This document shows, piece by piece, positions 41,217 to 61,461 of a DNA stretch of 64,000 nt. The stretch is from Elusimicrobiota bacterium (lineage in GTDB: Bacteria; Elusimicrobiota; Elusimicrobia; F11), in assembly GCA_022072025.1 (NCBI GenBank), contig JAJVIP010000007.1:124001-188000 (forward strand), in the 5' to 3' direction. Below the pieces are notes generated by a model, which saw nothing but the letters and a program-made list of their open reading frames with translations, searched no databases and was not told where the DNA came from. The position numbers and the translations under genes were made by a program. Positions within the stretch are counted from its first letter, which is position 1; every line of letters starts with the position of its first letter.

Positions 41217-41764
41217 GCTTGGGTGGACGCTCCCTCACGAGGAACACAGCCCTTTTGTTCGAGAAAAGAGAGGATTTTTCCAACACTTTGTTCGATTGTT
41301 TCCTTTTCAGAATTCACGGTGATATCGGCCTGGAGCGGAGGTTCATAAGGGTCGGAAACCCCGGTAAAATTTTTCACTTCCCCGGCCAACGCTTTTTTGT
41401 AAAGGCCTTTGACATCGCGTTCAGCCAATTTGTTAATTGAACATTCCACATAAATCTCTATAAAGTTACCGATGAGGGACCGATTGAATTCTCTGGCCTC
41501 GCGGTAAGGAGAAATGGCGGCAGAAATCGCCCAAATTCCATTGCGGGTGAGCAAATGGCACACATAGCCAATGCGTTTGATGTTGATGTCACGATCTTCT
41601 TTGCTGAAACTCAACCCCTTGCTCAAGTGGGTGCGAACCTCATCTCCATCCAGAACTTCAACTTTTTGCCCTCGCTTGCGCAATTCAACCGCAACACGTT
41701 CAGACAAGGTGGATTTCCCGGAACCGGAAAGGCCGGTGAACCATAAAGTGTAAGCCGTGGACAT
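41213..41764 (-). CDS. cysC: Adenylylsulfate kinase
   Basis: CysC phosphorylates APS to PAPS. Seen in 183 residues: P-loop GLSGSGKST (11-19), LDGDEVRTHLSKGLSFSKED, RDINIKRIGYVCHLL, then ISPYREARE and GLYKKALAGEVKNFTGVSDP, all typical. The start at 41764 is chosen for AAGGAG 10 nt upstream; the frame is open to 41833, where it would run into the PorV-like stop. A 68-nt gap follows the second PorV/TPR gene. No ATP sulfurylase (cysN/D or sat) lies in the window. Confidence 0.95.
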   Translation of the reverse strand: MSTAYTLWFTGLSGSGKSTLSERVAVELRKRGQKVEVLDGDEVRTHLSKGLSFSKEDRDINIKRIGYVCHLLTRNGIWAISAAISPYREAREFNRSLIGNFIEIYVECSINKLAERDVKGLYKKALAGEVKNFTGVSDPYEPPLQADITVNSEKETIEQSVGKILSFLEQKGCVPREGASTQA

Positions 41765-41832
41765 CAACACAATCTCCTTATTATTAAGTGAATGAGGGAC
41801 AAGGGTGGGGAAGCGGCCGGGATTATAGAACA

Positions 41833-43671
41833 TTACCGCTTTTTCTCACGCAGCTCCATTTGGGCTCGATTATAGGCATTGCGGGCCAAGGCATTGTGGG
41901 TGTCCGATGAAACCGCTTGCTCCCATAAACGCACCGCTTCTTGAAGATTCCCTTGAGAGTAGAAAAGCAACCCTTTGCTGTAGAGCATACGGCTTTGTTC
42001 GGTGTTGCGCTCTATATTCACCACGGGACGGCTCGGATCTGAAATCGAAGTCTCAGCGGCCGTAGCGGCCAAACGCTCCAAAGCTTCGATGGATTTGGCA
42101 ATGTAATCCGACGCCTCTTGATGATCAGGGCTCATTTCTTTGACTCGTTGGAAACTCTTAATGGCATCCAAATAATCCGCTCTTTCAAATTTGGCCACCG
42201 CTATCTTCATTTCACGTTCTATCGGCTCATTGATGCGATTACGAACATCTTCCATATAAGTGGTGGCTTCAATGTTGTCGGGACGGAAACTGAGAATTTT
42301 TTCACATGACTTTAGCGCGGCCTTCCAATCACCTTTCTCATACGTGTCTTTCAGCCGTTTGAGTTCCGAGGTCACGATTTCCTCGGTTCGCTCCGCCGTT
42401 AATTGCGCACGAACGCTTTCCAAATGACGCGCCAAAGTTTCATCTTGGGGTTTTAGCACCAACGCTTCTCCCAATGCCTGAACACTTCTTTCAAATTGCC
42501 CTTCGAAATAGGACACATATCCCTGGGCTTCATAAAGGTCTTCCGCTTTTAAATAACCCTGTCGGCGAATAACTTGGCGGGTGCTGGCGATAAGTTTGTC
42601 GAGCCCCATATCGCGCACGGTGTTGGGGCCATCCATTTTTTCTCGTAGTTTCGCCAGATTGTCTTGTCCCTGTTTTTGCCAACGCACGCTGGCGGCCACT
42701 TCGTTGATTTTCTTTCCAAAATCAAGATGAAACCCCAGCCGATGAGAGGAGCCCAAATCTTTCACACCCGCCGCCGCATCGTTGTAACCAAATGAATAAT
42801 CCAGCCCCCAATCCTTGAATACAAAACCAAGCCCTGTGGTCATTTCTGTCTCATTGATTCCTGCCCGCAACACCAACAGCGGGCTCAAGGCCCATTCGGT
42901 TCCCAAGCGAATTTTGGCCGTACGGTCGGCTGTTTGATTGATATCGGCCGCCAACATCCATTTGGCGGCCATTTGCCACCGAGCCCCCAGGCGAAGATCC
43001 AAAGGATAGGTATCGGTTTGATTGCGAAGTTTAATTTTGGGCGCCAAGATATTTCGAAGAGTCAGCCCCAAATTGAGTTTGGGATTGATTTTCATCATCG
43101 CAGCGCCGTCGAAGCCATAACCAGTCGCTGAAAATTCATCAACCTGTTGACGAATGACTTTAAGACTGGATCCAAGAGAAAAGCGATTTCCCATTTCAAT
43201 ACCATGAGACAACAGAAGGGCCGTTTCGGAAATACCAAATGAACCATCGCGGGTTCCATTCACATCACGACGATCGAAACTGCCCGAATGAAGGTTGACG
43301 ACACCCAACCCAAAAGTTCCCATATCGATGTGGGGATGAGCATAATTGATTACGCTGAATTTTGTGTCCTCAAATAGAGTGGAATAACTCATCACCAAAT
43401 TTTTTCGTTGGACCTGGGCGAGACCCGCGGGGTTGGAAATAACAGCGCTGGCATCTTCTGACACGGCCGTCCCAGCCCCAGCCATGGCCAAAGTTCGGGC
43501 GCTGTTGGCAAATTCGAGAAAGGCGCCAGGTTGCCCTGCATCTTCTTTGGCAAACCCAAAATCAAGGGCCGCATGAGCCGAAGCTCCCAACAACAGAAAA
43601 GCAACAAACACTGTTAAATCATTCTTAAAATTCAGCTCGTATTTATTATGTTTCGCCCGGATTTTAATCAT
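41833..43671 (-). CDS. PorV-like barrel fused to TPR repeats (copy B)
   Basis: A 612-residue exported protein. The signal peptide (LTVFVAFLLLGASAHAA) is followed by the PorV/PorQ opening AGQPGAFLEFANSARTLAMA and VSEDASAVISNPAGLAQV, then amphipathic strands to about 330 (GYNDAAAGVKDLGSSHRLGF), an outer-membrane barrel. Residues about 370-610 are TPR units (YLKAEDLYEAQGYVSYFEGQ, ...YTRAE-like helices, LFYSQGNLQEAVRLWEQAV), facing the periplasm. PorV shuttles type IX cargo; a barrel with a TPR tail is unusual. It overlaps adhesin B by 4 nt (ATGA) and is a close paralogue of the protein at 49483. Confidence 0.8.
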   Translation of the reverse strand: MIKIRAKHNKYELNFKNDLTVFVAFLLLGASAHAALDFGFAKEDAGQPGAFLEFANSARTLAMAGAGTAVSEDASAVISNPAGLAQVQRKNLVMSYSTLFEDTKFSVINYAHPHIDMGTFGLGVVNLHSGSFDRRDVNGTRDGSFGISETALLLSHGIEMGNRFSLGSSLKVIRQQVDEFSATGYGFDGAAMMKINPKLNLGLTLRNILAPKIKLRNQTDTYPLDLRLGARWQMAAKWMLAADINQTADRTAKIRLGTEWALSPLLVLRAGINETEMTTGLGFVFKDWGLDYSFGYNDAAAGVKDLGSSHRLGFHLDFGKKINEVAASVRWQKQGQDNLAKLREKMDGPNTVRDMGLDKLIASTRQVIRRQGYLKAEDLYEAQGYVSYFEGQFERSVQALGEALVLKPQDETLARHLESVRAQLTAERTEEIVTSELKRLKDTYEKGDWKAALKSCEKILSFRPDNIEATTYMEDVRNRINEPIEREMKIAVAKFERADYLDAIKSFQRVKEMSPDHQEASDYIAKSIEALERLAATAAETSISDPSRPVVNIERNTEQSRMLYSKGLLFYSQGNLQEAVRLWEQAVSSDTHNALARNAYNRAQMELREKKR

Positions 43672-46600: not shown

Positions 46601-47735
46601 AGATTTGCCCATTATGGGGCCCCACCAAATTGACGCCCTGAACTCCACTTCCACCAACGTTGTCGATCGATGTGACGGTGAAAGATACATTTCCCTTGAC
46701 CCAGGTATTTTCATCCGGGGTTCCAACGGGGTTATAAACGCAAGTGGGAGGCGTGTTATCAATGATAACGCGCACAGATTGGCTGGCAACACGCCCTGTT
46801 TGGTCACCAGCCACGGCCACAAAAGTTCGCTCTCCATCTGGAAATACAGTTGTATCGACCCGTGCGGTTTGTTCTCCATAATTCAAACCGAAGGTGGCCA
46901 CGACGGGCCCCGTAAATGTTCCATCTCGCAACTCAGCGGACATAACTTGAGGTTCGGATATATCCAAATGAACGATGGCTGAAATATAGTTATCACCAGA
47001 CTTGGCGGTATAAACCATGGCATCATCATCAGCCCTATAAGCATTTGGGGTGTAAGTAACAATTCCACTCTCTGATAAGGTGGCGGCCCCACGATGCGGC
47101 AAAGGCTCCGTCAAATGGTGGATTAGCCCTTTGTAATCTAAAGAAAATGACAGGGGATTCCCAAACGTAACTGATTCAGTGAGATTCTCCGCTTCCGGAA
47201 GATCTCCGCTTGGATTTCCTATTCTTACGTTAATAACTCTATATCCACGCCCCCCACGTCCATCATCTTCAAGCAAAACAAACGTATCAATAATGTTATT
47301 CACGCCTTGTCCAGGTGTGTATTCAGCGAAGTTGTTATAGACCAAAACTGTCCCATGATAGGGACCTGATATGAGCGAGTATGTTATGGAATCGTTATCG
47401 CCGTCAAAGGAAGGCATCCAGACATTGAGTTGAGAAGGGTTTGCCAATAGGTAATCTTCTAACTCAGTGGGAGGATCGGTGTTGAGGATTGAACGGACTG
47501 TGTGAATATTGAAGAGAAAATCAGCCCCCCTCAAGGGACTATCTTGCGGTGTACCGACTTCCACAGAAATCACGTCATTTTCTTCGAGGCATGCTCCCAG
47601 AGTATCATCGTAGAATCCATTGCAAGGATAGTCGGCGACTACAGTTTCTGGAGTAATCGCGACCAAGACCAATGGCACTACAAACAGAAATTTCGCCAAT
47701 GAAATAGAATGTCCCCGATGGATCTTTGTGATCAT
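43668..47735 (-). CDS. Giant surface protein B (Ig-like repeats, FlgD-Ig/T9SS-like C-terminus)
   Basis: A 1355-residue secreted protein. Signal peptide (KFLFVVPLVLVAITPETVVA); a cadherin/Big_9-like unit near 75-165 (DNDSITYSLISGPYHGTV); about eight bacterial Ig-like domains with linkers such as VIIDNTPPTC, ITQPLEGSRV and SFVPAQGQNVSGVMPI; a beta-rich domain about 1010-1250; and a final 90-residue unit, NMPNPFSPAEGG ... VHWDGRNGAGEIVANGGYIL, of the FlgD-Ig type that also resembles type IX sorting domains. Its whole second part is homologous to adhesin A, which has an extra repeat array. Shine-Dalgarno AAGGAGG; it overlaps the kinase by 4 nt and PorV/TPR B by 4 nt. Confidence 0.82.
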   Translation of the reverse strand: MITKIHRGHSISLAKFLFVVPLVLVAITPETVVADYPCNGFYDDTLGACLEENDVISVEVGTPQDSPLRGADFLFNIHTVRSILNTDPPTELEDYLLANPSQLNVWMPSFDGDNDSITYSLISGPYHGTVLVYNNFAEYTPGQGVNNIIDTFVLLEDDGRGGRGYRVINVRIGNPSGDLPEAENLTESVTFGNPLSFSLDYKGLIHHLTEPLPHRGAATLSESGIVTYTPNAYRADDDAMVYTAKSGDNYISAIVHLDISEPQVMSAELRDGTFTGPVVATFGLNYGEQTARVDTTVFPDGERTFVAVAGDQTGRVASQSVRVIIDNTPPTCVYNPVGTPDENTWVKGNVSFTVTSIDNVGGSGVQGVNLVGPHNGQIYPYLRVAGSADWLFENFNTWLLADGPNLFESECFDRAGNISGRIPRNLNVDNVVPAPTLTFDPLPSGQVLRGLATVNVIGNDGTGSGVSRVSLKLDGSLLATSFPFSLNSAGYPEGFHTLEAEVEDNLGNKATSSRNLNFDQSAPLITITQPLEGSRVAAGFNQLHATLTDLNGIDDSSIEIVVDGVVMSHTRSGNIFSLASALSSNGPHSLVVRAKDSVGNQGSSELRTIVLTGGTVPGGGNTVQFISPLHGQEIAGQYPLRVFNPDPTVTSIVVSINGANSLPLINDGDGIWKLDVDTNQYPEGSTTLEIRSENGSTTAQQSVTVSIDRTNPEVTSFVPAQGQNVSGVMPIVVAITDNQSVNSVRILVDGESVAVSQPNGSLASTSLSYSWDTTLFSNGTHGIQVEVMDQAGNIKTETRNVTVLNGPAVLPTITILEPRTGDAISGITPFRMLVQGTFSSVGIRIDDGPLIPAVQVPGTNEYRTNINTTIPTPGPHIIKFVADTTFVTANVYFDNIAPTVVVEAPTNGQSIFLIKNIIVRASDNSSASNIPLQEVRLSLGSTPLAFFPGHTDLSNNTYSYALDTTNSAFPDGSYSLMVTAQDKAGNETTVIVPFQINNAEPPISSGAQVDWTPVESFAVGPTRTAVSATISNVELVPTSVNESALTCVADKDGQSNSIPGRAVLDGRTVKFQGVIPSNANVTCLLRVIEKGTDNIERLIRRTKSFTSGMDRSLGGTVKLYPDDLLTLSIPAEALKNDALIRMVKSPAGELPLDGKEIVYGPIEIRAIDANGLATTLQVAARMEFKRNINEIPEPRRYGFVDQAEIYSTNFWKVLGPSGIAATTKDNPQVRGVTVSIEQFGVIRITSLAVPPEGISNLLNMPNPFSPAEGGTDFNYLLGSDSEVTLVMYDLFGGMVKKMEFGSGSNGGKFGPNVVHWDGRNGAGEIVANGGYILQITAKDNSGKTTRARYKVGVAK

Positions 47736-49273
47736 TTGGGACCTCCTTGGGAAAGATTGACAGGCAGTCTCGCGACCGCCATTTGAGGTGGCAAAGACAA
47801 GGCCTTCGCCACCTGAGAGGTTGACGCCGTCACTTTTTGCTGCATTTCCTTTGGAGCAAACGGCAGTTGGAAAATGAACGTGGATCCCTTGTCCACTTCA
47901 CTCTCAACCCAAATCTTTCCACCCTGCGCCTTGATGGAATTTTGAACGATGTTGAGGCCCAAACCGGAACCCGGCACCGGCTTTTCAACACGGTCACGGG
48001 TATCTTTTAAACACTCGAATTTTTTAAACACGCTGGACAATTTTTCCTTGGGAATACCCACCCCCGTGTCTTGCACGCCAATGGTGGCCATGCCGTCTCG
48101 TTCCTTAAGCCAAAGCACAATTCCACCTTTGTTGGTGAATTTGATGGCATTGTGGGTTAGGTTGGAGATCACTTGCCGAATTTTTTCCGAATCGGCCATT
48201 ACCAACGGAAATTCCGCGGGGACAATCGCCTGAATTTTGAGGCCTTTCTCCATGGCGCGAGGTTCAAAGAAATCGGCCATTTCACACAACAATCCCCCGA
48301 TGTTGACGGGCTGAATATCGAATGGCATTTTGCCGGCTTCCATGCGTGTTAAGTCCAAGATATTATCGATCAATCGATTCAACCGTTCGGACCCATAGAT
48401 CAGACGGTCGATGGACCGGCGGACTTTGGGGTCTTTGTTGGCGAGGGGCATTTCGGACATCAGCTCAACAGTTGAAATAATGCTCGTGAGTGGAGAGCGA
48501 AGCTCGTGAGAAACGTGAGACATGAAATCATCCTTCAATTGATCAAGTTTTATCAGCTCGTCCGACATATGGTTAAAAGTTTTTGTCAGTTTTCCGATTT
48601 CATCATTGCGTCCTTCCGGAACTTTAATTCCTTTTTCACCACGGGCGATGGCCTCAGCGGCGTTCATCAAGTTTTTTATAGGTCGACCCAAAGCAACACT
48701 GAAAAAGTGGGCCAATATCAAGCCGAATCCAATGGCAATGAGTCCCACAACAGTAAAACGTTGCACGGATTTCTCAATGGTTCGAGCGAATAACGCGGCC
48801 AACGCATCAACGGAATATCCCAAACGCACGTAACCAATGCGGCCCACGGGTTTTGAGAGTTCCAGGATTTTTTGCCCATTCAATTGGAATTGTCTGCGCA
48901 TCAACATGCCAGAGTCTTGAATGATTTTTATATGGGAATCATCTTCAGCGAGATAGGTCAGACGATCGGAACCGTTTTCCCACATCCAGGGGCTTCCTTC
49001 AGTCTTCTTGGGATAGACAAAACCCGCGTAGACAATACGGGGATGTGAAAGAGTCACGAGGTTCTTGGCGTACTTGAAAAGGGCCGGCTCATCATAAACG
49101 ATCATGCTGTCTTCACACACACGGGCCAACTTATCCAGTTCTTCCATTTGCTGTTGTGAGATTTCGGCCATGAGTCTTTTCTTTTCATAAACCAAAAGAG
49201 AAACCATGGTTCCACCCACCGCCATTAGAATCAAACATGAACTGGCCAAGTGAAATTTTGTTCGTAAATTCAT
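47732..49273 (-). CDS. Membrane sensor histidine kinase
   Basis: A 513-residue kinase: helix 1 (about 10-30), a periplasmic sensor domain of about 140 residues (including YAKNLVTLSHPRIVYAGFV), helix 2 (VGLIAIGFGLILAHFFSVAL), HAMP (RPIKNLMNAAEAIARGEKG), HisKA with SHVSHELRSPLTS, and an HATPase with NLTHNAIKFTNKGG, DTGVGIPKEK and GSGLGLNIV: all catalytic boxes are intact. The start at 49273 is chosen for GGAGGAG 5 nt upstream. No response regulator lies nearby (the only REC protein here is at 17722). It stands between the two adhesin modules and overlaps adhesin B by 4 nt, so it is probably tied to their control. Confidence 0.9.
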   Translation of the reverse strand: MNLRTKFHLASSCLILMAVGGTMVSLLVYEKKRLMAEISQQQMEELDKLARVCEDSMIVYDEPALFKYAKNLVTLSHPRIVYAGFVYPKKTEGSPWMWENGSDRLTYLAEDDSHIKIIQDSGMLMRRQFQLNGQKILELSKPVGRIGYVRLGYSVDALAALFARTIEKSVQRFTVVGLIAIGFGLILAHFFSVALGRPIKNLMNAAEAIARGEKGIKVPEGRNDEIGKLTKTFNHMSDELIKLDQLKDDFMSHVSHELRSPLTSIISTVELMSEMPLANKDPKVRRSIDRLIYGSERLNRLIDNILDLTRMEAGKMPFDIQPVNIGGLLCEMADFFEPRAMEKGLKIQAIVPAEFPLVMADSEKIRQVISNLTHNAIKFTNKGGIVLWLKERDGMATIGVQDTGVGIPKEKLSSVFKKFECLKDTRDRVEKPVPGSGLGLNIVQNSIKAQGGKIWVESEVDKGSTFIFQLPFAPKEMQQKVTASTSQVAKALSLPPQMAVARLPVNLSQGGPK

Positions 49274-49482
49274 GGATCTCCTCCACATGCTTTTAATTGT
49301 TTAACTCACACCATGAAGATCGCCTTAACTCTTGATTAAATTCCTATTAAGGTCCTATCCCATGAAACTGTGACTTTTTTCAACTCATAGAAAGGTTATG
49401 CACCGAAGTGGCCAAACATCAAATCTGATTGGATTTTCAATATGAATTTAAAAATCAATCAATGAATAAGGAGGGGACACCT

Positions 49483-51288
49483 TCACTGCTTATCGCGAAG
49501 TTCGATTTGGGCCCGGTTGTAAGCATTACGAGCCAAGGCATTTTGTGTGTCGTATTGCACCGCTTTTTCCCAAAGACGAACAGCGTCCTGGAGGTTTCCT
49601 TGGGAATAGGAAATTAATCCTTTGCTATACAATTCACGGCTTTGGTCAATGTTGCGACCGATTTCATAAACAGAGGAAACAAATGATTCTGAAACCGGAT
49701 CTGGCATTGTCGCGGCCAATCTCTCCAAGGCCGCAATAGATTTGGCGATATAGTCGTTGGCTTCTTTACTTTCTGGATTGAGTTCTTTGACGCGTTGAAA
49801 ACTTTTTATGGCATCCAAATATTCACCACGATTAAATTTGGCCACAGCGATTTTCATTTCACGTTCGATGGGCTCATTAATCTGTTTGCGAGCATCAACC
49901 AGATACATCGACGCTTCAATGTGATCGGGATGAAAACTTAAGATTTTTTCGCATGATTTCAGGGCCGATTTCCAATCTCCCTTGGAATAAAATTCTTTAA
50001 GACGTCTCAATTCATAATTCACTATTTCGCGAGTGCGCTCCTCTGTCATCTGTTTTCTCGCCATTTCCAAATGCTTGGCCAAAACACCATCTTGCGGAGT
50101 TAACGTGAGCGCCTCTCCCAAGGCCTGAACACTGCGTTCATAGGAACCTTCGAAATAGGAAACGTATCCTTGAGCCGTGTAGAGATCTTCGGCTTTAAGA
50201 TATCCCTGCCGACGAATCACTTGGCGAACCGTGGTGAGCAATTCCTCCAATTCAGAATCTCGAATGCTTGAAGAGGAGTTCATTCGTTTACGAAGCTGGG
50301 CCAAACCCTCACGCCCTTTCTTTTGCCATCGAATATTGGCCTCTTGTTCAGAAATGCTCTTGCCAAATTTCATATGTAGCCCCAATCGATGAGAGGAACC
50401 CAAATCCTGTAAACCCGCAGCAGCATCGTTATAACCAAAGGCATAATCAATGCCCCAATCTTTCAATTTAAGACCAAGGCCTGTGGTGAGTTCTGTTTCA
50501 TTGATCCCAAGACGGAATACCAATAGCGATGTGGTAACCCATTCGCCGCCCAATCGGACTTTGATCGAACGACCGCTGGTTTGGTTAAAGTCGGTGGCGA
50601 TCATGAGCTTCCGAGTGGCCTGCCAACGAGATCCCAGCCGTATGTCATAGGGATAACGATCTGACTCGTGGCGAAGCTTGATGTGTGGCGCCAATACATT
50701 GCGCAAAGTCAATCCAACACTTAATAACGGATTTAATTTCATCATGGCGGCACCATCCAAACCATAGCCGGTTCCTGAAAATTCATCCACTTGTTGTCGA
50801 ATGACTTTAAAGCTGGAACCGATGGAAAAACGATTTCCCATATCCAACCCATGCGAGAGAATTAAAGCTGAGTCTGAAATTCCAAACGATCCGTTTTTTT
50901 CTCCGACAGTATCGCGCCGTTCAAAATCACCCGATTGAAGGTTGATAAAACCCAATCCAAATGTTCCCGTGACAGCGGTGGGCTGGGCATAGTTAATAAC
51001 ACTGAATTTTGTGTTTTCAAATAAGGTGGAATAACTGGCAATGAATTCTTTGCGTTCAACCTGGGAGAGCCCAGCGGGATTGGAGAATACGGCACTGGCA
51101 TCATCAGAAACTGCGGTGGAAGCTCCGGCCATGGCAAGGGTTCGCGCACTGTTGGCATATTCAAGGAACGCGCCCGCATGGCCTGCATCGGCGCTGGCAA
51201 AACCAAAATCAACCGCTGCCGAGGTTGGTGCCCCGAAAACGAGGGAAATGACCACCGAATAAAAAACAGATTGAAAAATCAATCTCAC
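49483..51288 (-). CDS. PorV-like barrel fused to TPR repeats (copy A)
   Basis: A 601-residue paralogue of the protein at 41833 with the same layout: signal peptide (SVFYSVVISLVFGAPTSAA), PorV opening AGHAGAFLEYANSARTLAMA and VSDDASAVFSNPAGLSQV, barrel to about 330, TPR units to the end (YLKAEDLYTAQGYVSYFEGS; LISYSQGNLQDAVRLWEKAV). It starts at a GTG that overlaps the adhesin A stop (GTGA), so barrel synthesis depends on complete translation of the giant gene. The 194-210 bp after it, up to the kinase, hold no recognised element. Confidence 0.8.
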   Translation of the reverse strand: MRLIFQSVFYSVVISLVFGAPTSAAVDFGFASADAGHAGAFLEYANSARTLAMAGASTAVSDDASAVFSNPAGLSQVERKEFIASYSTLFENTKFSVINYAQPTAVTGTFGLGFINLQSGDFERRDTVGEKNGSFGISDSALILSHGLDMGNRFSIGSSFKVIRQQVDEFSGTGYGLDGAAMMKLNPLLSVGLTLRNVLAPHIKLRHESDRYPYDIRLGSRWQATRKLMIATDFNQTSGRSIKVRLGGEWVTTSLLVFRLGINETELTTGLGLKLKDWGIDYAFGYNDAAAGLQDLGSSHRLGLHMKFGKSISEQEANIRWQKKGREGLAQLRKRMNSSSSIRDSELEELLTTVRQVIRRQGYLKAEDLYTAQGYVSYFEGSYERSVQALGEALTLTPQDGVLAKHLEMARKQMTEERTREIVNYELRRLKEFYSKGDWKSALKSCEKILSFHPDHIEASMYLVDARKQINEPIEREMKIAVAKFNRGEYLDAIKSFQRVKELNPESKEANDYIAKSIAALERLAATMPDPVSESFVSSVYEIGRNIDQSRELYSKGLISYSQGNLQDAVRLWEKAVQYDTQNALARNAYNRAQIELRDKQ

Positions 51289-54200
51289 TTTGCAACGCCC
51301 ACCTTATAGCGAGCCCGCGTTACGCTTCCTGAACTATCTTTTGCGGTGATTTGGAGGATATAACCCCCATTCGCTACTACCTTTCCAGCACCATTCTTGC
51401 CATCCCAATGGACCGTGTTTTGACCAATTTTGGCACCCTCGTTGCCAATGGAAATTTCCATTCGGCGCACCAGGTTTCCGAACAGGTCGTACAACACCAA
51501 GTCCACATCGCTATCCGCGCCCAACAGATAGCTTATGTCGGTCCCGCCTTCGGCTGGAGAAAACGGGTTGGGCATGTTGAACAAATTAGAAACACCTTTG
51601 GCGGGAAGAGCCAAGGCCGTAATGCGGAAGATGCCAAACTGCTCAATTGGAACACTGATGGTCCTGGCCCCTGGAGTATCGGATTTGGTGAGCGTGGTAA
51701 TACCACTGCCCCCCAAAATTTTCCAATACTGATCCTGGCTATAGACTTCCGCCTGATCAATAAAATTATTTCGTTGTGGTTCTGGTATCGCTTGGATAGA
51801 CCGTTCAAACCGCATGCGCCCAGGAGCCACCAAAACCGTGGGATGCCCTTGTGAATCAGCGGCTCTGATCTGAATGGGGCCGTAAACGATTTCTCGACCA
51901 TCCAATTCAAATTGCTCCGCGGGCAGCTTAACCATCTCAACGAAAGCGTCTGTTTTCAACGCGTAGGGAGGAATAGAGAACTTCAACAGACCCTCCGGCA
52001 AGAGCGTAACAGTACCCCCGAGAGTGTGATCCATCCCACTGATGAAATGATGAGTTTGACGAATGGCTTTTCCATCCATATCCAAGACATTCAGAGTGCA
52101 ATGGACCATCGCGTTACTGGGAATGGATCCCCAAAATCTCAATGTGTTACCGACCAGTCGAACCGATCCAGGCAGTTGTCTTGTTTGACCATCCACCGTC
52201 ACGGTACATTTCAACGCCGCATCAGTGACAGACGTACCGTCAACACTAGCGTTTGAAATTTTCGCGCTTACAACCGTGTTTTCTGGGCCCACAACAAAAG
52301 AAGCCGCGGGCGTCCAATCGACAAGGGCATTGGAAATGGGCACATTCACATTGTCAATGCGGAACGGCACTGTCACCTGAGTTTCATTGCCGGCCTTGTC
52401 TTGCGCGATCACGACAAAATTGTAGTCCCCGTCCAGATATTCTGCCGCCGATGTATCCAAGGTATAGGAGTAAATGTGATTGCTGGGATCAACGTTCCCT
52501 GGGAAAAAAGCCAAAGGAGAAGCATTAATAAACATCCGGACTCCGGTCAGGGGAAGATTTGAACTATCGAAAGCTCGGGCGATAAAATTCTTAACCAAGA
52601 AAATTATTTGGTTGTTGACGGGAATATCTATATTTACCACCGGTGGCGTGTTGTCAATAAATACGGTGGTGGTTAAAGTTGTGGGCCCCGCGGCATTCAT
52701 GGCGACAAATTCAATGTTGTGATTCCCATCTGCATACAACGTGCTATTTAAATTGATCTTATATTCATTGGTTCCCGCCACCTGTGTGGCGGGAATGAGG
52801 GCCCCTCCGTCAATGCGAAAACCGGCGTTTAACAAGGGACCATCGACCACCATACGCAAGGGGGTGATGGCACTGATGGCGTCATTGTTTTGGGGCGTTA
52901 AAATCGTAATAACTGGGGAAAGCACTGTTCCATTCTCAACAACCAAATGTCGTGTCACACTTCGACTGTTTCCAGATTTATCCCGAACAATCACGGCAAC
53001 CTCATGCGTCCCCTCGGTTACTCCGGTACTATCCCACAAGTAAGTTAAATTGTCTGATGTAACCGTTCCTGAAGGATGAGAGACGGCAACCACCTGACCA
53101 TCCAGCATTATCAAAATCTCATGAACGGAAAAGTTATCGGTTACACTCATTTCAATCGGAACTGCTCCTGACACCTGATCCCCCTCAATCAGATTGAGTT
53201 GAGTGATGCTGGGCAATGTGTTGTCAATCGTCACATTGACCGATTGCTGAACAGTCGCTCCGGTTCCATCCTGAAAAGTCAATGAAAGTGTGGCAGACCC
53301 TTGTGAAAACGCCGTTGTATTCAAATCATAAGTCCACACATTGTCACCGGAAGTGGTCATCACCAGCGGGGACCCTCCGTTGACATTTAACACAACGCCC
53401 GACACGGGCCCACTGTTATCGGTTATATAGGCTCGAACGGGAAAACCACCCCCCCCAATGAAACTGTTGGCAGCGGGGGTGATAAATTCAGCTTGGTCGG
53501 GGAGTGGTATATTGTTGCCTCCCAATAAAACAAATGAACTTTCAATGGTGCCCACGTTACCCACAGTGTCCTGTGTCTCAATAAGAATGAAATGAAGACC
53601 ATTGGACGTCACGGCGGGGAGGAATGTGTAAATATCTCCGGATTTCGTGAAGGACACTTGTGCCCCGTCGATATACATCTTGGGTGAATCAGGTGAGATT
53701 CCATTCGATTCTGTGATTGTAAATTGGACTTGATTTAATGAACCGACCACGGAAGCGCCATTGACAGGTGAAGCGACTTCCATTATGGGCTCTGACCTGT
53801 CAAAAACCAATGTTTGTGTCGTAACGCCTAAATTTCCCAAGGTATCAATGGCTTCCGCCGTCAAAACATGTGTTCCTTCCGAATAACTATCTGTGTTAAG
53901 TAAATAAGGGAATGAAGTGGCGAGCAATTGACCATCCAATAGCAATCGAAGTTGGACGACCCCTGATCCCATGGCATCGGTTGCTGTCACGTCCACTGAA
54001 ACCTGCGATTGAATGATCCCGTTAATGGCATTGGGAGACAAGGCCATCGTCACGGTCGGAGCCGTGTTATCGACGAACAGGTTTCGTGAAACTTTTCCGC
54101 TCACATTGTTGGCTCGGTCAAAACATTCCGAATTGAAGATGTGATGGCCATCAGCCAATAATAAAGTGTTGAAATTTTGAAACGTCCAATCAGACGTTCC

Positions 54201-57200
54201 ACTGATGCGGATATAAGGAAGGGGTTGCGAATTTCGAGGGTCCACCAAATTGGCCCCTTGGACACCGCTGCCATTGGTGTCGTCAACAACTGTTACCACG
54301 AATGAAATGTTTTCCTTCACCCAAGAATTTTCCAAAGGAGACTCTGAAACTGAATAGGCGCAGGTGGGAGGCGTATTATCAATGATGACGTTGATCGCAG
54401 AAGAAGCCTTGAGACCAGCGGCATCCTGAACGACCGCCACAAATGTGTGAAGCCCATTTGGATACACAGTGGTATCAATATCAGCGGTTTGAATTCCCAA
54501 AGTTGTCCCCATTGTCGCCACCACGGGCCCATTTTCAGTTTCGTCATGCCACTTGGCACTCGTTATCTCGGGAGAAGAAATAGGGAGAAGAATGACGGCA
54601 GACAAATAATTTTCCCCAACGTTGGCCATGTAAATCATGGCATCATTGTCAGCCCGTGTGAGGCTGGGTGAATAAGTGACAATAGAATTATTCACAGTGC
54701 GATATCCACGATAAGGGAGTGGCGGAGAAACAGTGGTGAGATTAACCGCGTAATTCAAAGAAAATATTTTTTCATCCGGAAACGTAATAGGAATCATACG
54801 ATCCTGAACAACTGGAAAAGGAACCCCTGGTGAACCAACGGTTATGTTAAGCCCCAAATATCCAGTTCCAGCTCGTTGATCGTCTATCAGAAGAACGGCT
54901 GAATCCATAACATCACATTTCCCTGGAGATGGGACATAGGTTGCCACAGCCCCAGTTATTGTCAGGACTCCGTGTTTAAAACCAATACCCGGCATCACCG
55001 TGTAAGTCAAAAGATCATTATCGATATCTCTTTCTGGCAATTGCATAACCAAGGGCATGCCGCAACTCGTAGAGAAGGTTTTGGTTGAAGTCATCGGATC
55101 ATTGTTATTGAGATCTCTGGACAACACCAATTCAAATTGAGTGATACCCGATACAACTGCCCCTTGTTGTGTTTGCACCTCCACCTCAGGCACATTTCCA
55201 TATTCGGATACCTGGTCAGGAACAGATTCTGTGGTTACCTGAAGCGATATGACCGCGATATTACTGTCACTAAAGCCATCATTGGCTTTATAGGTCAAGC
55301 CATCGGATCCAATATAACCTGCCTGGGGCGTGTAACGAATTTGACTTCCAATGACGATGGCTGCCCCGTGAGAAGGTCCATTCACAATGTCGATAGAAAA
55401 TGGGTCCCCATTCTCATCATAAACGATGGGATTGATTACCAATGACGAATCGACCGTGGTACGTTCAAATGAATTATTTGCAATGGGAGATGGATTCGCT
55501 CCTTCAATCAAGATCGTCACGTTTGCGACATTGCTATCCACAATTCCATCATTCACTTTGTAGGTGAAACTGTCGGCGCCGTTGTAACCGGCAGCGGGTG
55601 TGTAGGTAACCGAATTGCCACTCACCAAACCCAAGCTTCCATGTGAGGGACCCGAAACGATCACATAGGTCAGAGCGTCCCCATCTCCATCGGTCCCCAC
55701 CATCGTTACTGTTTTTGCTGTGTCCTCCGAGGTTGTCTCTGAAACATTGCTCGCCACTGGGACATCATTGACCGCATTCACTTGAATTGAAACGGTGGCT
55801 ACGTTACTGTCCACGGTTCCATCGTTCACTTTGTAGGTGAAGCTATCGCTTCCGTTGTAACCGGCAGCGGGTGTGTAGGTAACCGAATTGCCACTCACCA
55901 AACCCAAGCTTCCATGCGAGGGGTCCGAAACAATCGCATAGGTCAGGGCGTCCCCATCCCCATCAGTCCCCACCATCGTTACTGTTTTTGCTGTGTCCTC
56001 CGAGGTCGTCTCTGAAACATTGCTCGCCATCGGGGCATCATTGGCTGGGTTTACCGCAATTGAAACGGTGGCTACATTACTGTCCACGGTTCCATCATTC
56101 ACCTTGTAAGTGAAGCTATCGGCACCGTTGTAATTGGATGCGGGCGTGTAGGTGACCTGATTACCAGCAACAGCACTGAGCGTTCCGTGCGATGGAGTTA
56201 AAACGATTGAATAAGTGAGAGTGTCGCCATCGACGTCACTTCCGCTGAGCGTGAGGGTCTTCTGAGTATCTTCAGTTGTCGAGTCATTGACTTCATTGGC
56301 CGTTGGCGCATGATTATCATCTTCAACAAGTATTGAAACCATCGCGATGTTGCTGTTAACCGACCCATCATTCGCTTGATAACTGAATGTGTCCGTCCCA
56401 AGATATCCTGTGACAGGAGTATATACGACAGTGTTCCCCGTCACTGAACCCAAACTTCCGTGTGAGGGTCCAGTAACAATCGAATAGGTCAGAGGGTCTC
56501 CATCTCCATCTGATGCCACCATCGTTACCGCATAGGCCGTATCTAAAAATGTTCCTCCAGAAATATTGTTGGCAACGGGTGCTTCATTGACTGCATTTAC
56601 TTGAAGGGAAACGGTGGCCACATTACTGTCCACGGTTCCATCGTTCACTTTGTAGGTAAAGCTATCGCTTCCGTTGTAACCGGCAGCGGGTGTGTAGGTA
56701 CCTTGGTTTCCCGAAACAGCGCTGAGCGTTCCATGCGACGGAGTTAAAACGATTGAATAAGTAAGAGTGTCTCCATCACTATCACTCGCAATGAGCGTAA
56801 CTATTTTCGCTGTGTCCTCGGAGGTTGTCTCAGAAACATTGCTCGCCACCGGCGCATCATTGACTGGGTTTACCGTAATTGAAACGGTCGCCACATTACT
56901 ATCCACGGTTCCATCGTTCACTTTGTAGGTGAAACTGTCGCTTCCGTTGTAACCTGCAGCGGGCGTGTAGGTAACCGAATTGCCACTCACCAAACCCAAG
57001 CTTCCATGCGAGGGACCCGACACAATCACATAGGTCAGAGCGTCCCCATCTCCATCGGTCCCCACCATCGTTACTGTTTTTGCTGTGTCTTCTGAGGTCG
57101 TCTCGGAAACATTGGCGGCGGTCGGTGCATCATTCACTGCATTTACTTGAAGGGAAACGGTGGCCACATTGCTATCCACAGTTCCATCATTCACTTTGTA

Positions 57201-60200
57201 GGTAAAGCTATCGCTTCCGTTGTAACCGGCGGCAGGTGTGTAGGTCACTTGATTTCCAGAAACAGCACTGAGCGTTCCATGCGACGGAGTTAAAACGATT
57301 GAATAAGTAAGAGTGTCTCCATCACTATCACTCGCAATGAGCGTAACTATTTTCGCTGTGTCCTCGGAGGTTGTCTCAGAAACATTGCTCGCCACCGGCG
57401 CATCATTGACTGGGTTTACCGTAATTGAAACGGTCGCCACATTACTATCCACGGTTCCATCGTTCACTTTGTAGGTGAAACTGTCGCTTCCGTTGTAACC
57501 TGCAGCGGGCGTGTAGGTAACCGAATTGCCACTCACCAAACCCAAGCTTCCATGCGAGGGACCCGACACAATCACATAGGTCAGAGCGTCCCCATCTCCA
57601 TCGGTCCCCACCATCGTTACTGTTTTTGCTGTGTCTTCTGAGGTCGTCTCGGAAACATTGGCGGCGGTCGGTGCATCATTCACTGCATTTACTTGAAGGG
57701 AAACGGTGGCCACATTGCTATCCACAGTTCCATCATTCACTTTGTAGGTAAAGCTATCGCTTCCGTTGTAACCGGCGGCAGGTGTGTAGGTCACTTGATT
57801 TCCAGAAACAGCGCTGAGCGTTCCATGCGACGGAGTTAAAACGATTGAATAAGTAAGAGTGTCTCCATCACTATCACTCGCACTGAGCGTAACTATTTTC
57901 GCTGTGTCCTCGGAGGTTGTCTCAGAAACATTGCTCGCCATCGGCGCATCATTGACTGCATTTACTTGAATTGAAACGGTCGCCACATTGCTATCCACAG
58001 ATCCGTCGTTCACTTTGTAGGTGAAACTGTCGCTTCCGTTGTAACCGGCAGCAGGTGTGTAGGTCACTTGGTTTCCAGAAACAGCACTGAGCGTTCCATG
58101 CGACGGAGTTAAAACGATTGAATAAGTGAGAGTGTCACCATCACCATCACTCGCACTGAGCGTAACCATTTTTGCCGTATCCTCCGAGGTCGTCTCTGAA
58201 ACATTGCTCGCCACCGGCGCATCATTGACTGCATTTACTTGAATTGAAACGGTGGCTACGTTACTATCCACGGTTCCATCGTTCACTTTGTAAGTGAAGC
58301 TATCGCTTCCGTTGTAACCGGCAGCGGGTGTGTAGGTCACTTGGTTTCCCGAAACAGCGCTGAGCGTTCCATGCGACGGAGTTAAAACGATTGAATATGT
58401 AAGAGTGTCTCCATCACTATCACTCGCACTGAGCGTAACCATTTTCGCTGTGTCCTCCGAGGTTATCTCTGAAACATTGCTCGCCACTGGGGCATCATTG
58501 ACTGGATTTACTTGAAGGGAAACGGTCGCCACATTGCTATCCACTGTTCCGTCGTTCACTTTGTAGGTAAAGCTATCGCTTCCGTTGTAACCGGCAGCGG
58601 GTGTGTAGGTAACCGAATTGCCACTCACCAAACCCAAGGTCCCGTGCGAGGGGCCCGACACAATCGCATAGGTCAGGGCGTCCCCATCTCCATCGGTTCC
58701 CACCATCGTGACTGTTTTCGCTGTGTCCTCGGAGGTTGTCTCAGAAACATTGCTCGCCACCGGCGCATCATTGACTGCATTTACTTGAATTGAAACGGTC
58801 GCCTCATTGCTATCCACAGTTCCATCATTCACTTTGTAGGTAAAGCTATCGCTTCCGTTGTAACCGGCAGCGGGTGTGTAGGTCACTTGATTTCCAGAAA
58901 CAGCACTGAGCGTTCCATGTGAGGGAGTTAAAACGATTGAATAAGTAAGAGTGTCTCCATCACTATCACTCGCACTGAGCGTAACTATTTTCGCTACGTC
59001 CTCGGAGGTCGTCTCTGAAACATTGCTCGCCACCGGCGCATCATTGACTGCATTTACTTGAATTGAAACGGTGGCTACGTTACTATCCACGGTTCCATCG
59101 TTCACTTTGTAAGTGAAGCTATCGCTTCCGTTGTAACCGGCAGCGGGTGTGTAGGTCACTTGGTTTCCCGAAACAGCGCTGAGCGTTCCATGCGACGGAG
59201 TTAAAACGATTGAATATGTAAGAGTGTCTCCATCACTATCACTCGCACTGAGCGTAACCATTTTCGCTGTGTCCTCCGAGGTTATCTCTGAAACATTGCT
59301 CGCCACTGGGGCATCATTGACTGGATTTACTTGAAGGGAAACGGTCGCCACATTGCTATCCACTGTTCCGTCGTTCACTTTGTAGGTAAAGCTATCGCTT
59401 CCGTTGTAACCGGCAGCGGGTGTGTAGGTAACCGAATTGCCACTCACCAAACCCAAGGTCCCGTGCGAGGGGCCCGACACAATCGCATAGGTCAGGGCGT
59501 CCCCATCTCCATCGGTTCCCACCATCGTGACTGTTTTCGCTGTGTCCTCGGAGGTTGTCTCAGAAACATTGCTCGCCACCGGCGCATCATTGACTGCATT
59601 TACTTGAATTGAAACGGTCGCCTCATTGCTATCCACAGTTCCATCATTCACTTTGTAGGTAAAGCTATCGCTTCCGTTGTAACCGGCGGCAGGTGTGTAG
59701 GTCACTTGATTTCCAGAAACAGCACTGAGCGTTCCATGCGACGGAGTTAAAACGATTGAATAAGTAAGAGTGTCTCCATCACTATCACTCGCAATGAGCG
59801 TAACTATTTTCGCTGTGTCCTCGGAGGTTGTCTCAGAAACATTGCTCGCCATCGGCGCATCATTGACTGCATTTACTTGAATTGAAACGGTGGCTACATT
59901 ACTGTCCACGGTTCCATCATTCACCTTGTAAGTGAAGCTATCGGCACCGTTGTAATTGGATGCGGGTGTGTAGGTAACCGAATTGCCACTCACCAAACCC
60001 AAAGTCCCGTGCGAGGGACCCGACACAATCGCATAGGTCAGGGCGTCCCCATCCCCATCGGCCCCCACCATCGTGACTGTTTTCGCTGTGTCCTCGGAGG
60101 TTGTCTCAGAAACATTGCTCGCCACCGGCGCATCATTGACTGCATTTACTTGAATTGAAACGGTCGCCACATTACTATCCACGGTTCCGTCGTTCACTTT

Positions 60201-61301
60201 GTAGGTAAAGCTATCGCTTCCGTTGTAACCGGCAGCAGGTGTGTAGGTCACTTGATCTCCTGAAACAGAATCGAGTGTTCCATGTAAGGGGCCCGAAACT
60301 ATTACATAGGTCAGGGTGTCTCCATCTCCATCACTCCCCAACATCGTTACCGCTATTGCTGTGTTCTCGGAAGTCGTCTCTGAAATATTGTTGGCCACCG
60401 GAGCATCATTGGCCGCATTCACTTGAATTGAAACGGCCGCCACATTGCTATCAACCGTTCCATCGTTCACCTTGTAAGTAAAACTATCGCTTCCGTTGTA
60501 ATTGGTGCCGGGCGTGTAAGTCACTTGGTTTCCAGATACGGCGCTGAGTGTTCCATGCAACGGACCAGAAACGATTGAGTAGGTCAGGGTGTCGCCATCC
60601 CCATCGCTCCCGACCATCGTTACCGCTTTAGGGGTGTCCTCTAAGGTGATATCGGAAACATTGTTGGCGACTGGCGCATCGTTCACCCCATTCACTTGCA
60701 GTGAAACCGTCGCCAGGTTGCTGTCTTCTGTTCCATCATTGACTTTATAAGTGAAACTATCGGGGCCAACATAGCCAGAAGTTGGAGTGTAATTAATGGA
60801 TGCACCCACGGGTGCGTCAACTGTTCCATGTGAGGGACCATCAACGACGATGTATTGTAAGGTGTCGCCGTCCCCATCACTGGCCATTAGCAAGATTGAG
60901 GTTTGTGTATTCTCATCCACATTCGCGGAAACATCATTTGCTATGGGACCATTGTTGCCGCCTTGAACCATGATTAACATTGTTGCTTCATTGCTATCAG
61001 CAAATCCATCGTTGGCAATAAATGTAAATGAATCAGTTCCGGTAAAATTTAAATTGGGAGTATAAGTAACTGCATCGCCCAGAACTTGCTCCAAACTTCC
61101 ATTGGAGACTCCGGTTACAATTGAAAATGTCAGCGGGTCCCCATCTGGATCAGTCGCAATGAGAGGAATCGTGATAGGCGTATTAATTAATGTTGTTTCT
61201 GCATGACTGGCTGCGACGGGAGGTTGGTTTTCACACCGTCCCAATGAAGGGAAAAAAATGACTCCTATTAACAATACCCCTAATGAATATTTTTGATTCA
61301 T
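51285..61301 (-). CDS. Giant surface protein A (about 22 cadherin/Big_9-type repeats)
   Basis: About 3338 residues from the ATG 61301 (AGGA 5 nt upstream; signal peptide YSLGVLLIGVIFFPSLG); an ATG 33 nt further up is possible. From about residue 25 to 2030 come some 22 repeats of 91 residues, core DGDGDALTYAIVSGPSHGTL ... VTYTPAAGYNGSDSFTYKVN, with Asp-rich loops fit for Ca2+ as in tandem-95/Big_9 proteins. Then about 1300 residues are homologous to adhesin B: Ig-like domains, a beta domain and the C-terminal FlgD-Ig/T9SS-like unit (NMPNPFSPAEGG, VHWDGKNGAG). It would be an elongated cell-surface or released fibre for adhesion. First gene of the long adhesin unit; no clear promoter seen. Confidence 0.87.
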   Translation of the reverse strand: MNQKYSLGVLLIGVIFFPSLGRCENQPPVAASHAETTLINTPITIPLIATDPDGDPLTFSIVTGVSNGSLEQVLGDAVTYTPNLNFTGTDSFTFIANDGFADSNEATMLIMVQGGNNGPIANDVSANVDENTQTSILLMASDGDGDTLQYIVVDGPSHGTVDAPVGASINYTPTSGYVGPDSFTYKVNDGTEDSNLATVSLQVNGVNDAPVANNVSDITLEDTPKAVTMVGSDGDGDTLTYSIVSGPLHGTLSAVSGNQVTYTPGTNYNGSDSFTYKVNDGTVDSNVAAVSIQVNAANDAPVANNISETTSENTAIAVTMLGSDGDGDTLTYVIVSGPLHGTLDSVSGDQVTYTPAAGYNGSDSFTYKVNDGTVDSNVATVSIQVNAVNDAPVASNVSETTSEDTAKTVTMVGADGDGDALTYAIVSGPSHGTLGLVSGNSVTYTPASNYNGADSFTYKVNDGTVDSNVATVSIQVNAVNDAPMASNVSETTSEDTAKIVTLIASDSDGDTLTYSIVLTPSHGTLSAVSGNQVTYTPAAGYNGSDSFTYKVNDGTVDSNEATVSIQVNAVNDAPVASNVSETTSEDTAKTVTMVGTDGDGDALTYAIVSGPSHGTLGLVSGNSVTYTPAAGYNGSDSFTYKVNDGTVDSNVATVSLQVNPVNDAPVASNVSEITSEDTAKMVTLSASDSDGDTLTYSIVLTPSHGTLSAVSGNQVTYTPAAGYNGSDSFTYKVNDGTVDSNVATVSIQVNAVNDAPVASNVSETTSEDVAKIVTLSASDSDGDTLTYSIVLTPSHGTLSAVSGNQVTYTPAAGYNGSDSFTYKVNDGTVDSNEATVSIQVNAVNDAPVASNVSETTSEDTAKTVTMVGTDGDGDALTYAIVSGPSHGTLGLVSGNSVTYTPAAGYNGSDSFTYKVNDGTVDSNVATVSLQVNPVNDAPVASNVSEITSEDTAKMVTLSASDSDGDTLTYSIVLTPSHGTLSAVSGNQVTYTPAAGYNGSDSFTYKVNDGTVDSNVATVSIQVNAVNDAPVASNVSETTSEDTAKMVTLSASDGDGDTLTYSIVLTPSHGTLSAVSGNQVTYTPAAGYNGSDSFTYKVNDGSVDSNVATVSIQVNAVNDAPMASNVSETTSEDTAKIVTLSASDSDGDTLTYSIVLTPSHGTLSAVSGNQVTYTPAAGYNGSDSFTYKVNDGTVDSNVATVSLQVNAVNDAPTAANVSETTSEDTAKTVTMVGTDGDGDALTYVIVSGPSHGSLGLVSGNSVTYTPAAGYNGSDSFTYKVNDGTVDSNVATVSITVNPVNDAPVASNVSETTSEDTAKIVTLIASDSDGDTLTYSIVLTPSHGTLSAVSGNQVTYTPAAGYNGSDSFTYKVNDGTVDSNVATVSLQVNAVNDAPTAANVSETTSEDTAKTVTMVGTDGDGDALTYVIVSGPSHGSLGLVSGNSVTYTPAAGYNGSDSFTYKVNDGTVDSNVATVSITVNPVNDAPVASNVSETTSEDTAKIVTLIASDSDGDTLTYSIVLTPSHGTLSAVSGNQGTYTPAAGYNGSDSFTYKVNDGTVDSNVATVSLQVNAVNEAPVANNISGGTFLDTAYAVTMVASDGDGDPLTYSIVTGPSHGSLGSVTGNTVVYTPVTGYLGTDTFSYQANDGSVNSNIAMVSILVEDDNHAPTANEVNDSTTEDTQKTLTLSGSDVDGDTLTYSIVLTPSHGTLSAVAGNQVTYTPASNYNGADSFTYKVNDGTVDSNVATVSIAVNPANDAPMASNVSETTSEDTAKTVTMVGTDGDGDALTYAIVSDPSHGSLGLVSGNSVTYTPAAGYNGSDSFTYKVNDGTVDSNVATVSIQVNAVNDVPVASNVSETTSEDTAKTVTMVGTDGDGDALTYVIVSGPSHGSLGLVSGNSVTYTPAAGYNGADSFTYKVNDGIVDSNVANVTILIEGANPSPIANNSFERTTVDSSLVINPIVYDENGDPFSIDIVNGPSHGAAIVIGSQIRYTPQAGYIGSDGLTYKANDGFSDSNIAVISLQVTTESVPDQVSEYGNVPEVEVQTQQGAVVSGITQFELVLSRDLNNNDPMTSTKTFSTSCGMPLVMQLPERDIDNDLLTYTVMPGIGFKHGVLTITGAVATYVPSPGKCDVMDSAVLLIDDQRAGTGYLGLNITVGSPGVPFPVVQDRMIPITFPDEKIFSLNYAVNLTTVSPPLPYRGYRTVNNSIVTYSPSLTRADNDAMIYMANVGENYLSAVILLPISSPEITSAKWHDETENGPVVATMGTTLGIQTADIDTTVYPNGLHTFVAVVQDAAGLKASSAINVIIDNTPPTCAYSVSESPLENSWVKENISFVVTVVDDTNGSGVQGANLVDPRNSQPLPYIRISGTSDWTFQNFNTLLLADGHHIFNSECFDRANNVSGKVSRNLFVDNTAPTVTMALSPNAINGIIQSQVSVDVTATDAMGSGVVQLRLLLDGQLLATSFPYLLNTDSYSEGTHVLTAEAIDTLGNLGVTTQTLVFDRSEPIMEVASPVNGASVVGSLNQVQFTITESNGISPDSPKMYIDGAQVSFTKSGDIYTFLPAVTSNGLHFILIETQDTVGNVGTIESSFVLLGGNNIPLPDQAEFITPAANSFIGGGGFPVRAYITDNSGPVSGVVLNVNGGSPLVMTTSGDNVWTYDLNTTAFSQGSATLSLTFQDGTGATVQQSVNVTIDNTLPSITQLNLIEGDQVSGAVPIEMSVTDNFSVHEILIMLDGQVVAVSHPSGTVTSDNLTYLWDSTGVTEGTHEVAVIVRDKSGNSRSVTRHLVVENGTVLSPVITILTPQNNDAISAITPLRMVVDGPLLNAGFRIDGGALIPATQVAGTNEYKINLNSTLYADGNHNIEFVAMNAAGPTTLTTTVFIDNTPPVVNIDIPVNNQIIFLVKNFIARAFDSSNLPLTGVRMFINASPLAFFPGNVDPSNHIYSYTLDTSAAEYLDGDYNFVVIAQDKAGNETQVTVPFRIDNVNVPISNALVDWTPAASFVVGPENTVVSAKISNASVDGTSVTDAALKCTVTVDGQTRQLPGSVRLVGNTLRFWGSIPSNAMVHCTLNVLDMDGKAIRQTHHFISGMDHTLGGTVTLLPEGLLKFSIPPYALKTDAFVEMVKLPAEQFELDGREIVYGPIQIRAADSQGHPTVLVAPGRMRFERSIQAIPEPQRNNFIDQAEVYSQDQYWKILGGSGITTLTKSDTPGARTISVPIEQFGIFRITALALPAKGVSNLFNMPNPFSPAEGGTDISYLLGADSDVDLVLYDLFGNLVRRMEISIGNEGAKIGQNTVHWDGKNGAGKVVANGGYILQITAKDSSGSVTRARYKVGVAK
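55240..61210 (-). repeat. Tandem array of 273-bp coding repeats
   Basis: About 22 in-frame units of 273 bp inside adhesin A. Two higher-order duplications are visible: about 680 bp at 58186-58867 recurs unchanged at 59005-59686 (period 819 = 3 units), and a block around 57001-57146 recurs at +546 (2 units). Outer units (first two, and the 18th, 19th and 22nd) have diverged most. Confidence 0.9.
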
Positions 61302-61461
61302 AATATTCCTAAATTTTTCCCTTTTCCTTTTCATTCATATGTATCCAGTGTAAAGGCTTCTTTTAGTTTAGTCTCTATGCGACACTTTTTCCCTCAAAAA
61401 AATCTAATTTCTCAGAGGGCAGAATAAGGGTTTGCAACAACGATGCCGTAACTAAAAATGG

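Follow-up and report, generated by a model that had tools for sequence, protein, structure and literature searches.

In a 64-kb window on contig C7 of the 3.64-Mb genome of an Elusimicrobiota bacterium (G000), two large surface proteins (hereafter cargoes) are each encoded next to an outer-membrane barrel of the PorV/PorQ family, and the same pairing recurs throughout the genome. Nearly every large surface protein with a type IX secretion system (T9SS) tail is made beside a private barrel that probably catches it on its way out of the cell and holds it at the surface. We consider it likely that these loci serve a divergent T9SS whose PorV-like barrels each take their own cargo from the SprA translocon and stay bound to it as an anchor.

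The locus lies on the minus strand and forms an operon-like run of giant cargo, barrel with tetratricopeptide repeats (PorV-TPR), sensor kinase, second cargo and second PorV-TPR, followed by an APS kinase gene and a PHP-domain gene. Its features are listed below in the numbering of the window, the whole 64-kb stretch that was analyzed.

51285..61334, minus: giant cargo, 3349 aa (translation, Pfam/NCBIfam domains)
51288..51578, minus: predicted T9SS type A-like C-terminal sorting domain of the giant (TIGR04183, FlgD_ig, profile A2)
49483..51288, minus: upstream PorV/PorQ-family barrel with TPR, 601 aa, GTG start (NF033709, model, fold match)
50365..51174, minus: barrel domain of the upstream PorV-TPR (profile match G000:C7:174365-175174)
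49513..50196, boundaries approximate, minus: TPR superhelix of the upstream PorV-TPR, predicted periplasmic (family scan, model)
47732..49288, minus: sensor histidine kinase, 518 aa (membrane; HAMP-HisKA-HATPase)
43668..47735, minus: second cargo, 1355 aa (Big_7/Big_13/Big_3_3 domains, FlgD-Ig tail)
43671..43961, minus: predicted C-terminal sorting domain of the second cargo (FlgD_ig, PorU C-terminal domain match, model)
41833..43671, minus: second PorV/PorQ-family barrel with TPR, 612 aa (NF033709, UPF0164 over cut-off)
42718-43521, minus: barrel domain of the second PorV-TPR (profile match)

Overlaps of 4 nt join the giant to the upstream PorV-TPR (51285-51288), the kinase to the second cargo (47732-47735) and the second cargo to the second PorV-TPR (43668-43671), while 194 nt separate the upstream PorV-TPR from the kinase. 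The five genes, their order and their 4-nt overlaps, including that of the kinase with the second cargo, are as a first-pass annotation of the window had described them. That annotation placed the right end of the giant at 61301, an alternative in-frame ATG at residue 12.

Both window barrels pass the cut-off of 90 bits for the PorV/PorQ family (NF033709), the second with 129.8 bits and the upstream one with 118.5. The models for PorV proper (NF033710, cut-off 250) and PorQ (NF033711, cut-off 220) were not reached, the highest scores being 45.5 and 92.5 bits, respectively. Among the Pfam and NCBIfam matches listed for the two barrels (E<=0.01) there was no PorP/SprF family, and a Pfam scan returned no POTRA domain in the barrels. 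A profile built from 24 barrels matches PorV (6h3i_F, E=4.4e-39). The AlphaFold model of the upstream barrel gene shows a 14-strand barrel and a TPR superhelix (predicted local distance difference test score, pLDDT, 87), and its top Foldseek match is PorV 8gl6_F (E=2.5e-10), taken from a translocon with a bound RemA tail; FadL structures are also among the fold matches. Modeling thus yielded the barrel that the first-pass annotation had predicted, with PorV as best match, and the window barrels are, as judged from family models and predicted fold, PorV/PorQ-family 14-strand FadL-type barrels with an added TPR. Sister barrels carry C-terminal additions of LysM (L052, L060), OmpA (L050), TPR (L044, L053) or FlgD-Ig (L059) type. 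LysM and OmpA domains bind peptidoglycan in known proteins. The FlgD-Ig case (L059:11928-13283) is a PorV-family barrel fused to a FlgD-Ig domain of its own (Pfam, over cut-off) and lies behind a 1961-aa cargo.

Both cargoes begin with a signal peptide, judged by eye, and that of the giant is followed by about 22 Big_9/cadherin-like "tandem-95" repeats, Big domains and a FlgD-Ig C-terminal tail. The first-pass annotation had noted that both proteins end in a FlgD-Ig unit resembling a T9SS sorting domain, and both tails do pass the Pfam FlgD_ig cut-off (37.8 bits for the giant, 32.3 for the second cargo) and match T9SS tails in sequence profiles. Against TIGR04183, the NCBI model of the type A sorting domain, the giant's tail scores 23.1 bits when neighbors are included, over the cut-off of 23, and counts as a type A sorting domain by this model; the genome holds 16 TIGR04183 sites, 15 of them over cut-off, the giant's included. 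The same tail matches profile A2 with E=2.1e-24, a profile that itself includes this sequence. The tail of the second cargo, modeled with a pLDDT of 95, also matches the PorU C-terminal domain (NCBIfam/profile).

The genome's tails fit a single alignment (WDG..N..G..VASG.Y......K..V.K), and their profile matches the T9SS tails of PorZ (1.7e-10), PorU (2e-7), RgpB, RemZ and NucA, and FlgD too. A Lys stands sixth from the C-terminal end in 19 of 24 tails, reminiscent of type A tails, in which a Lys near the end is almost invariant (PMC10994853). The link to T9SS tails came from sequence profiles only, and on these the cargo tails classify as FlgD-Ig domains of the T9SS type A sorting class. Within the giant, about 19 copies of a 273-bp DNA unit (76% matches) occupy 55528-60762; their number may reflect recombination or assembly. 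Two other open frames that bear a tail, of 8354 and 8613 aa (L053:3-11066 on G000:C14, and G000:C5:99026-99271), far exceed the window's giant.

The pairing of barrel and cargo extends well beyond the window. The fetched regions of the genome hold about 21 PorV-family genes, 18 of which lie directly downstream of a tail-bearing open reading frame (ORF), about half of them with a 4-nt overlap; two others (L048, L052) precede their cargo and one (L044) stands alone. Of 116 PorV genes in nine genomes, at least 64 have a tail directly upstream among the matches listed, compared with about 0.4 expected. Together with the 18 of 21 at home, this means that the pairing is not due to chance, and the search of the lineage that the first-pass annotation had called for, namely for barrel genes adjoining FlgD-Ig-ending giants, thus found it genome-wide. 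Copy numbers agree as well: barrels and tails per genome in eight genera number 32/29, 34/33, 17/16, 17/16, 28/28, 14/18, 18/19 and 24/25, a total of 184 barrels to 184 tails (r=0.97), although these counts include some split matches, which makes them approximate and the equal totals coincidental. The relative G001, a contaminated assembly, has 28 barrels to 43 tails.

Barrels and tails have also diverged together. The Mantel correlation between barrel and tail distances in the genome is r=0.64 (p about 5e-5), and r=0.44 (p=4.5e-4) once close duplicates are removed. For 78 pairs from the nine genomes the correlation of divergence is r=0.62, a value matched by none of 2000 within-genome shuffles; when restricted to barrels less than 35% identical it is still 0.24 (0/2000 shuffles). 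In 43 of the 78 pairs, the closest barrel and the closest tail in another genome share a locus, compared with a mean of 2 and a maximum of 10 in shuffles. Given the correlated divergence and these same-locus neighbors, cargo/barrel pairs are inherited as units.

The first-pass annotation had suggested looking elsewhere in the genome for SprA and PorKLMN. An 1822-aa ORF on contig C2 (L040:6492-11960) is a SprA homologue (TIGR04189, E=3e-26). As a single sequence it found no match in the PDB, but a profile that combined it with 15 class members matched SprA (6h3i_A) as the sole PDB hit, with E about 1.5e-30 over four stretches. The homologue is present in 93 of the 98 genomes searched, all of one class and including this one, and in 76 of the 78 good ones. 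At most of the fetched class loci its neighbors are a ComF-like gene and a divergent LptF/LptG-like gene, both named from sequence by eye, the former also by a Pfam phosphoribosyltransferase match. Our searches for T9SS parts covered SprA and C25 and, of the motor and ring, only GldM and GldN. No C25 (PorU-type) protease was found in this genome and only one among the 98, in a contaminated assembly, with no positive control giving a signal. By hidden Markov model, GldM had no match in this genome and GldN none in the 98 genomes, and neither family gave a positive in control genomes. The part of the suggestion concerning SprA was thus borne out.

The presence of a SprA homologue in this genome and nearly all relatives suggests that barrel and cargo form the shuttle/cargo half of a T9SS-like pathway. 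The "dedicated two-component" display system of the first-pass annotation therefore stands as regards a dedicated barrel per giant, given the pairing, copy number and co-divergence, and is too narrow as regards two components.

We propose that the giant adhesins, to judge from their signal peptides, are exported by Sec and then enter the SprA-like translocon of the outer membrane, whose gene lies on contig C2, being recognized through the C-terminal FlgD-Ig domain of the T9SS type A class. Each cargo would have its own PorV-family barrel, supplied in about equal amount through translational coupling, in place of a recycled PorV common to all. We infer that the barrel docks at SprA, accepts the tail and departs with the cargo. 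With no PorU-type protease found, the cargo probably keeps its tail, and the barrel would remain bound as an anchor, in effect consumed by the cargo; the equal copy number and the missing sortase fit such consumption. The C-terminal TPR of the barrel would reach into the periplasm, and the LysM and OmpA domains of sister barrels may likewise face the periplasm and tie the display unit to peptidoglycan. A bolder version, which we offer only tentatively, is a reduced T9SS of SprA and many private PorV-family barrels that lacks the PorU sortase and the PorL/M-K/N motor; in it, a barrel made together with the cargo and tethered to the cell wall would capture the tail for good, which would replace shuttle recycling.

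Several observations weigh against the proposed T9SS with private barrels. Three tail-bearing giants (L054, L058, L061) have no adjoining barrel, and in G001 each of two PorV-LysM genes stands at the front of an array of about ten cargoes whose tails are similar. With some pairs more than 100 nt apart or inverted besides, dedicated pairing holds but the "always" in the first-pass statement of one barrel per cargo, always co-translated, does not. The arrays indicate that one barrel can apparently serve several cargoes when their tails are alike. Co-divergence alone is no proof of binding specificity, since joint duplication of linked genes predicts it too. The second cargo (43668-47735) is not among the TIGR04183 matches listed despite reaching the FlgD_ig cut-off, and in a fold search of the tail FlgD fits at least as well as T9SS tails. 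The SprA homologue, at 91 bits, lies below the curated TIGR04189 cut-off of 200, so diverged T9SS parts may escape such models; as C25, GldM and GldN were silent in control genomes too, their absence is provisional.

The orphan giants, the PorV-LysM arrays and joint duplication would all suit ordinary, recycled PorV-like shuttles of overlapping specificity, the pairing arising from joint duplication and operon dosage and the cargo being released or attached later by some sortase. Crosstalk among the SprF-like shuttles of Flavobacterium johnsoniae (PMC12618676) points the same way. Recycled shuttles, however, would not need a one-to-one copy number, yet the counts match in eight genera; the peptidoglycan-binding additions on sister barrels suit fixed anchors better, and no C25 protease was found. 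We regard this explanation as unlikely. That the barrels are FadL-type nutrient channels sharing operons with adhesins, with the FlgD-Ig tails as structural Ig domains, might be read from the FadL structures among the fold matches and from FlgD_ig being a general fold; it is very improbable in view of the adjacency (at least 64 against 0.4 expected among the matches listed), the co-divergence of barrel and tail, and the profile matches to PorV and T9SS tails. An operon that supplies a barrel for each giant cargo also resembles the genetics of TpsA/TpsB, in which case the barrel would be the cargo's export pore and SprA irrelevant. Such two-partner (type Vb) secretion is about as improbable and was rejected: TpsB has 16 strands and POTRA domains, whereas the barrels here have a 14-strand FadL/PorV fold with PorV and FadL as best matches and no POTRA match, the tails match T9SS sorting domains, and nearly all genomes searched in the class have the SprA homologue.

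We also considered G001 as a natural experiment, with a C25 sortase, few PorV genes and many cargoes. There, about 20 tail-bearing cargo genes occupy a 58-kb run (L089-L091; G001:C126:10736-68923) that includes the C25 protease with its own tail. The idea was dropped, as this protease is itself a tailed member of the cargo array and the assembly is 14% contaminated.

The two pairs in the window are paralogous, as had been proposed: the barrels are 68% identical, and the C-terminal 1300 residues of the cargoes 48% over 1317 columns. By these identities the cargo/barrel pair was most likely duplicated as one unit and acquired the tandem-95 array in one of its copies. The relative G002 has a single cargo/barrel pair with a kinase orthologue (56% identical; L062:15465-17003) in the same place, and this synteny places the kinase, by sequence comparison, within the conserved cargo/barrel locus; we saw no response regulator adjoining it. 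The G002 passenger is merely 26% identical to that of the window, the tail being clearly better conserved in the alignment, and all five close barrel orthologues, from three genera, sit behind a cargo with a 4-nt overlap. The APS kinase gene (41213-41833) overlaps the end of the second PorV-TPR gene by 1 nt and is absent at the matching place in G002 (L062). At another locus, two ORFs alike at both visible ends (L055:413-1513 and L055:8336-9427) flank one cargo/PorV pair, which suggests a recent duplication or a mobile unit.

Parts of this arrangement are known from Bacteroidota, where PorV docks at the lateral opening of SprA, receives the type A tail and departs together with it (PMC10994853). 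The Bacteroidota type A system (PMC10994853) has a related barrel, a related Ig-like tail and the SprA translocon, a homologue of which occurs here, but there a single PorV is common to all type A tails (PMC12618676) and PorU cleaves the tail, whereas here many PorV-family genes are paired with cargoes and no C25 was found. Type B cargoes use cognate PorP/SprF shuttles, commonly encoded directly downstream, that also set the final location and offer a precedent for shuttles doubling as anchors (PMC12618676, PMC9143113). As here, SprB/SprF of F. johnsoniae and PG1035-PorP-PorE of Porphyromonas gingivalis have a FadL-family barrel directly downstream, one per cargo, with some orphans; the barrel is required for secretion and is a proposed surface anchor, and where the cargo is fixed there is a partner that binds peptidoglycan (PMC9143113, PMC12618676). 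The barrels here differ from SprF and PorP in belonging to the PorV/PorQ family and pairing with type A-like FlgD-Ig tails, and they have TPR, LysM or OmpA domains in the same polypeptide instead of on a separate PorE-like protein.

According to published descriptions, T9SS is restricted to the Fibrobacteres-Chlorobi-Bacteroidetes group (PMC11205867, PMC12421860). In the open-access papers searched we found no paper on T9SS in Elusimicrobiota and no match for PorV together with FlgD. The NCBI models for the UPF0164/PorV-PorQ family and the "T9SS type A sorting domain" cover single genes, not the pairing or the system. SprA across the class, together with type A-like tails and about equal numbers of PorV-family barrels, suggests that the use of cognate barrels can extend to type A tails. 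The matched pairs in these genomes form a ready-made set in which to look for the determinants of shuttle specificity, and the Elusimicrobia system raises the question of whether the sortase and the motor are dispensable in T9SS.
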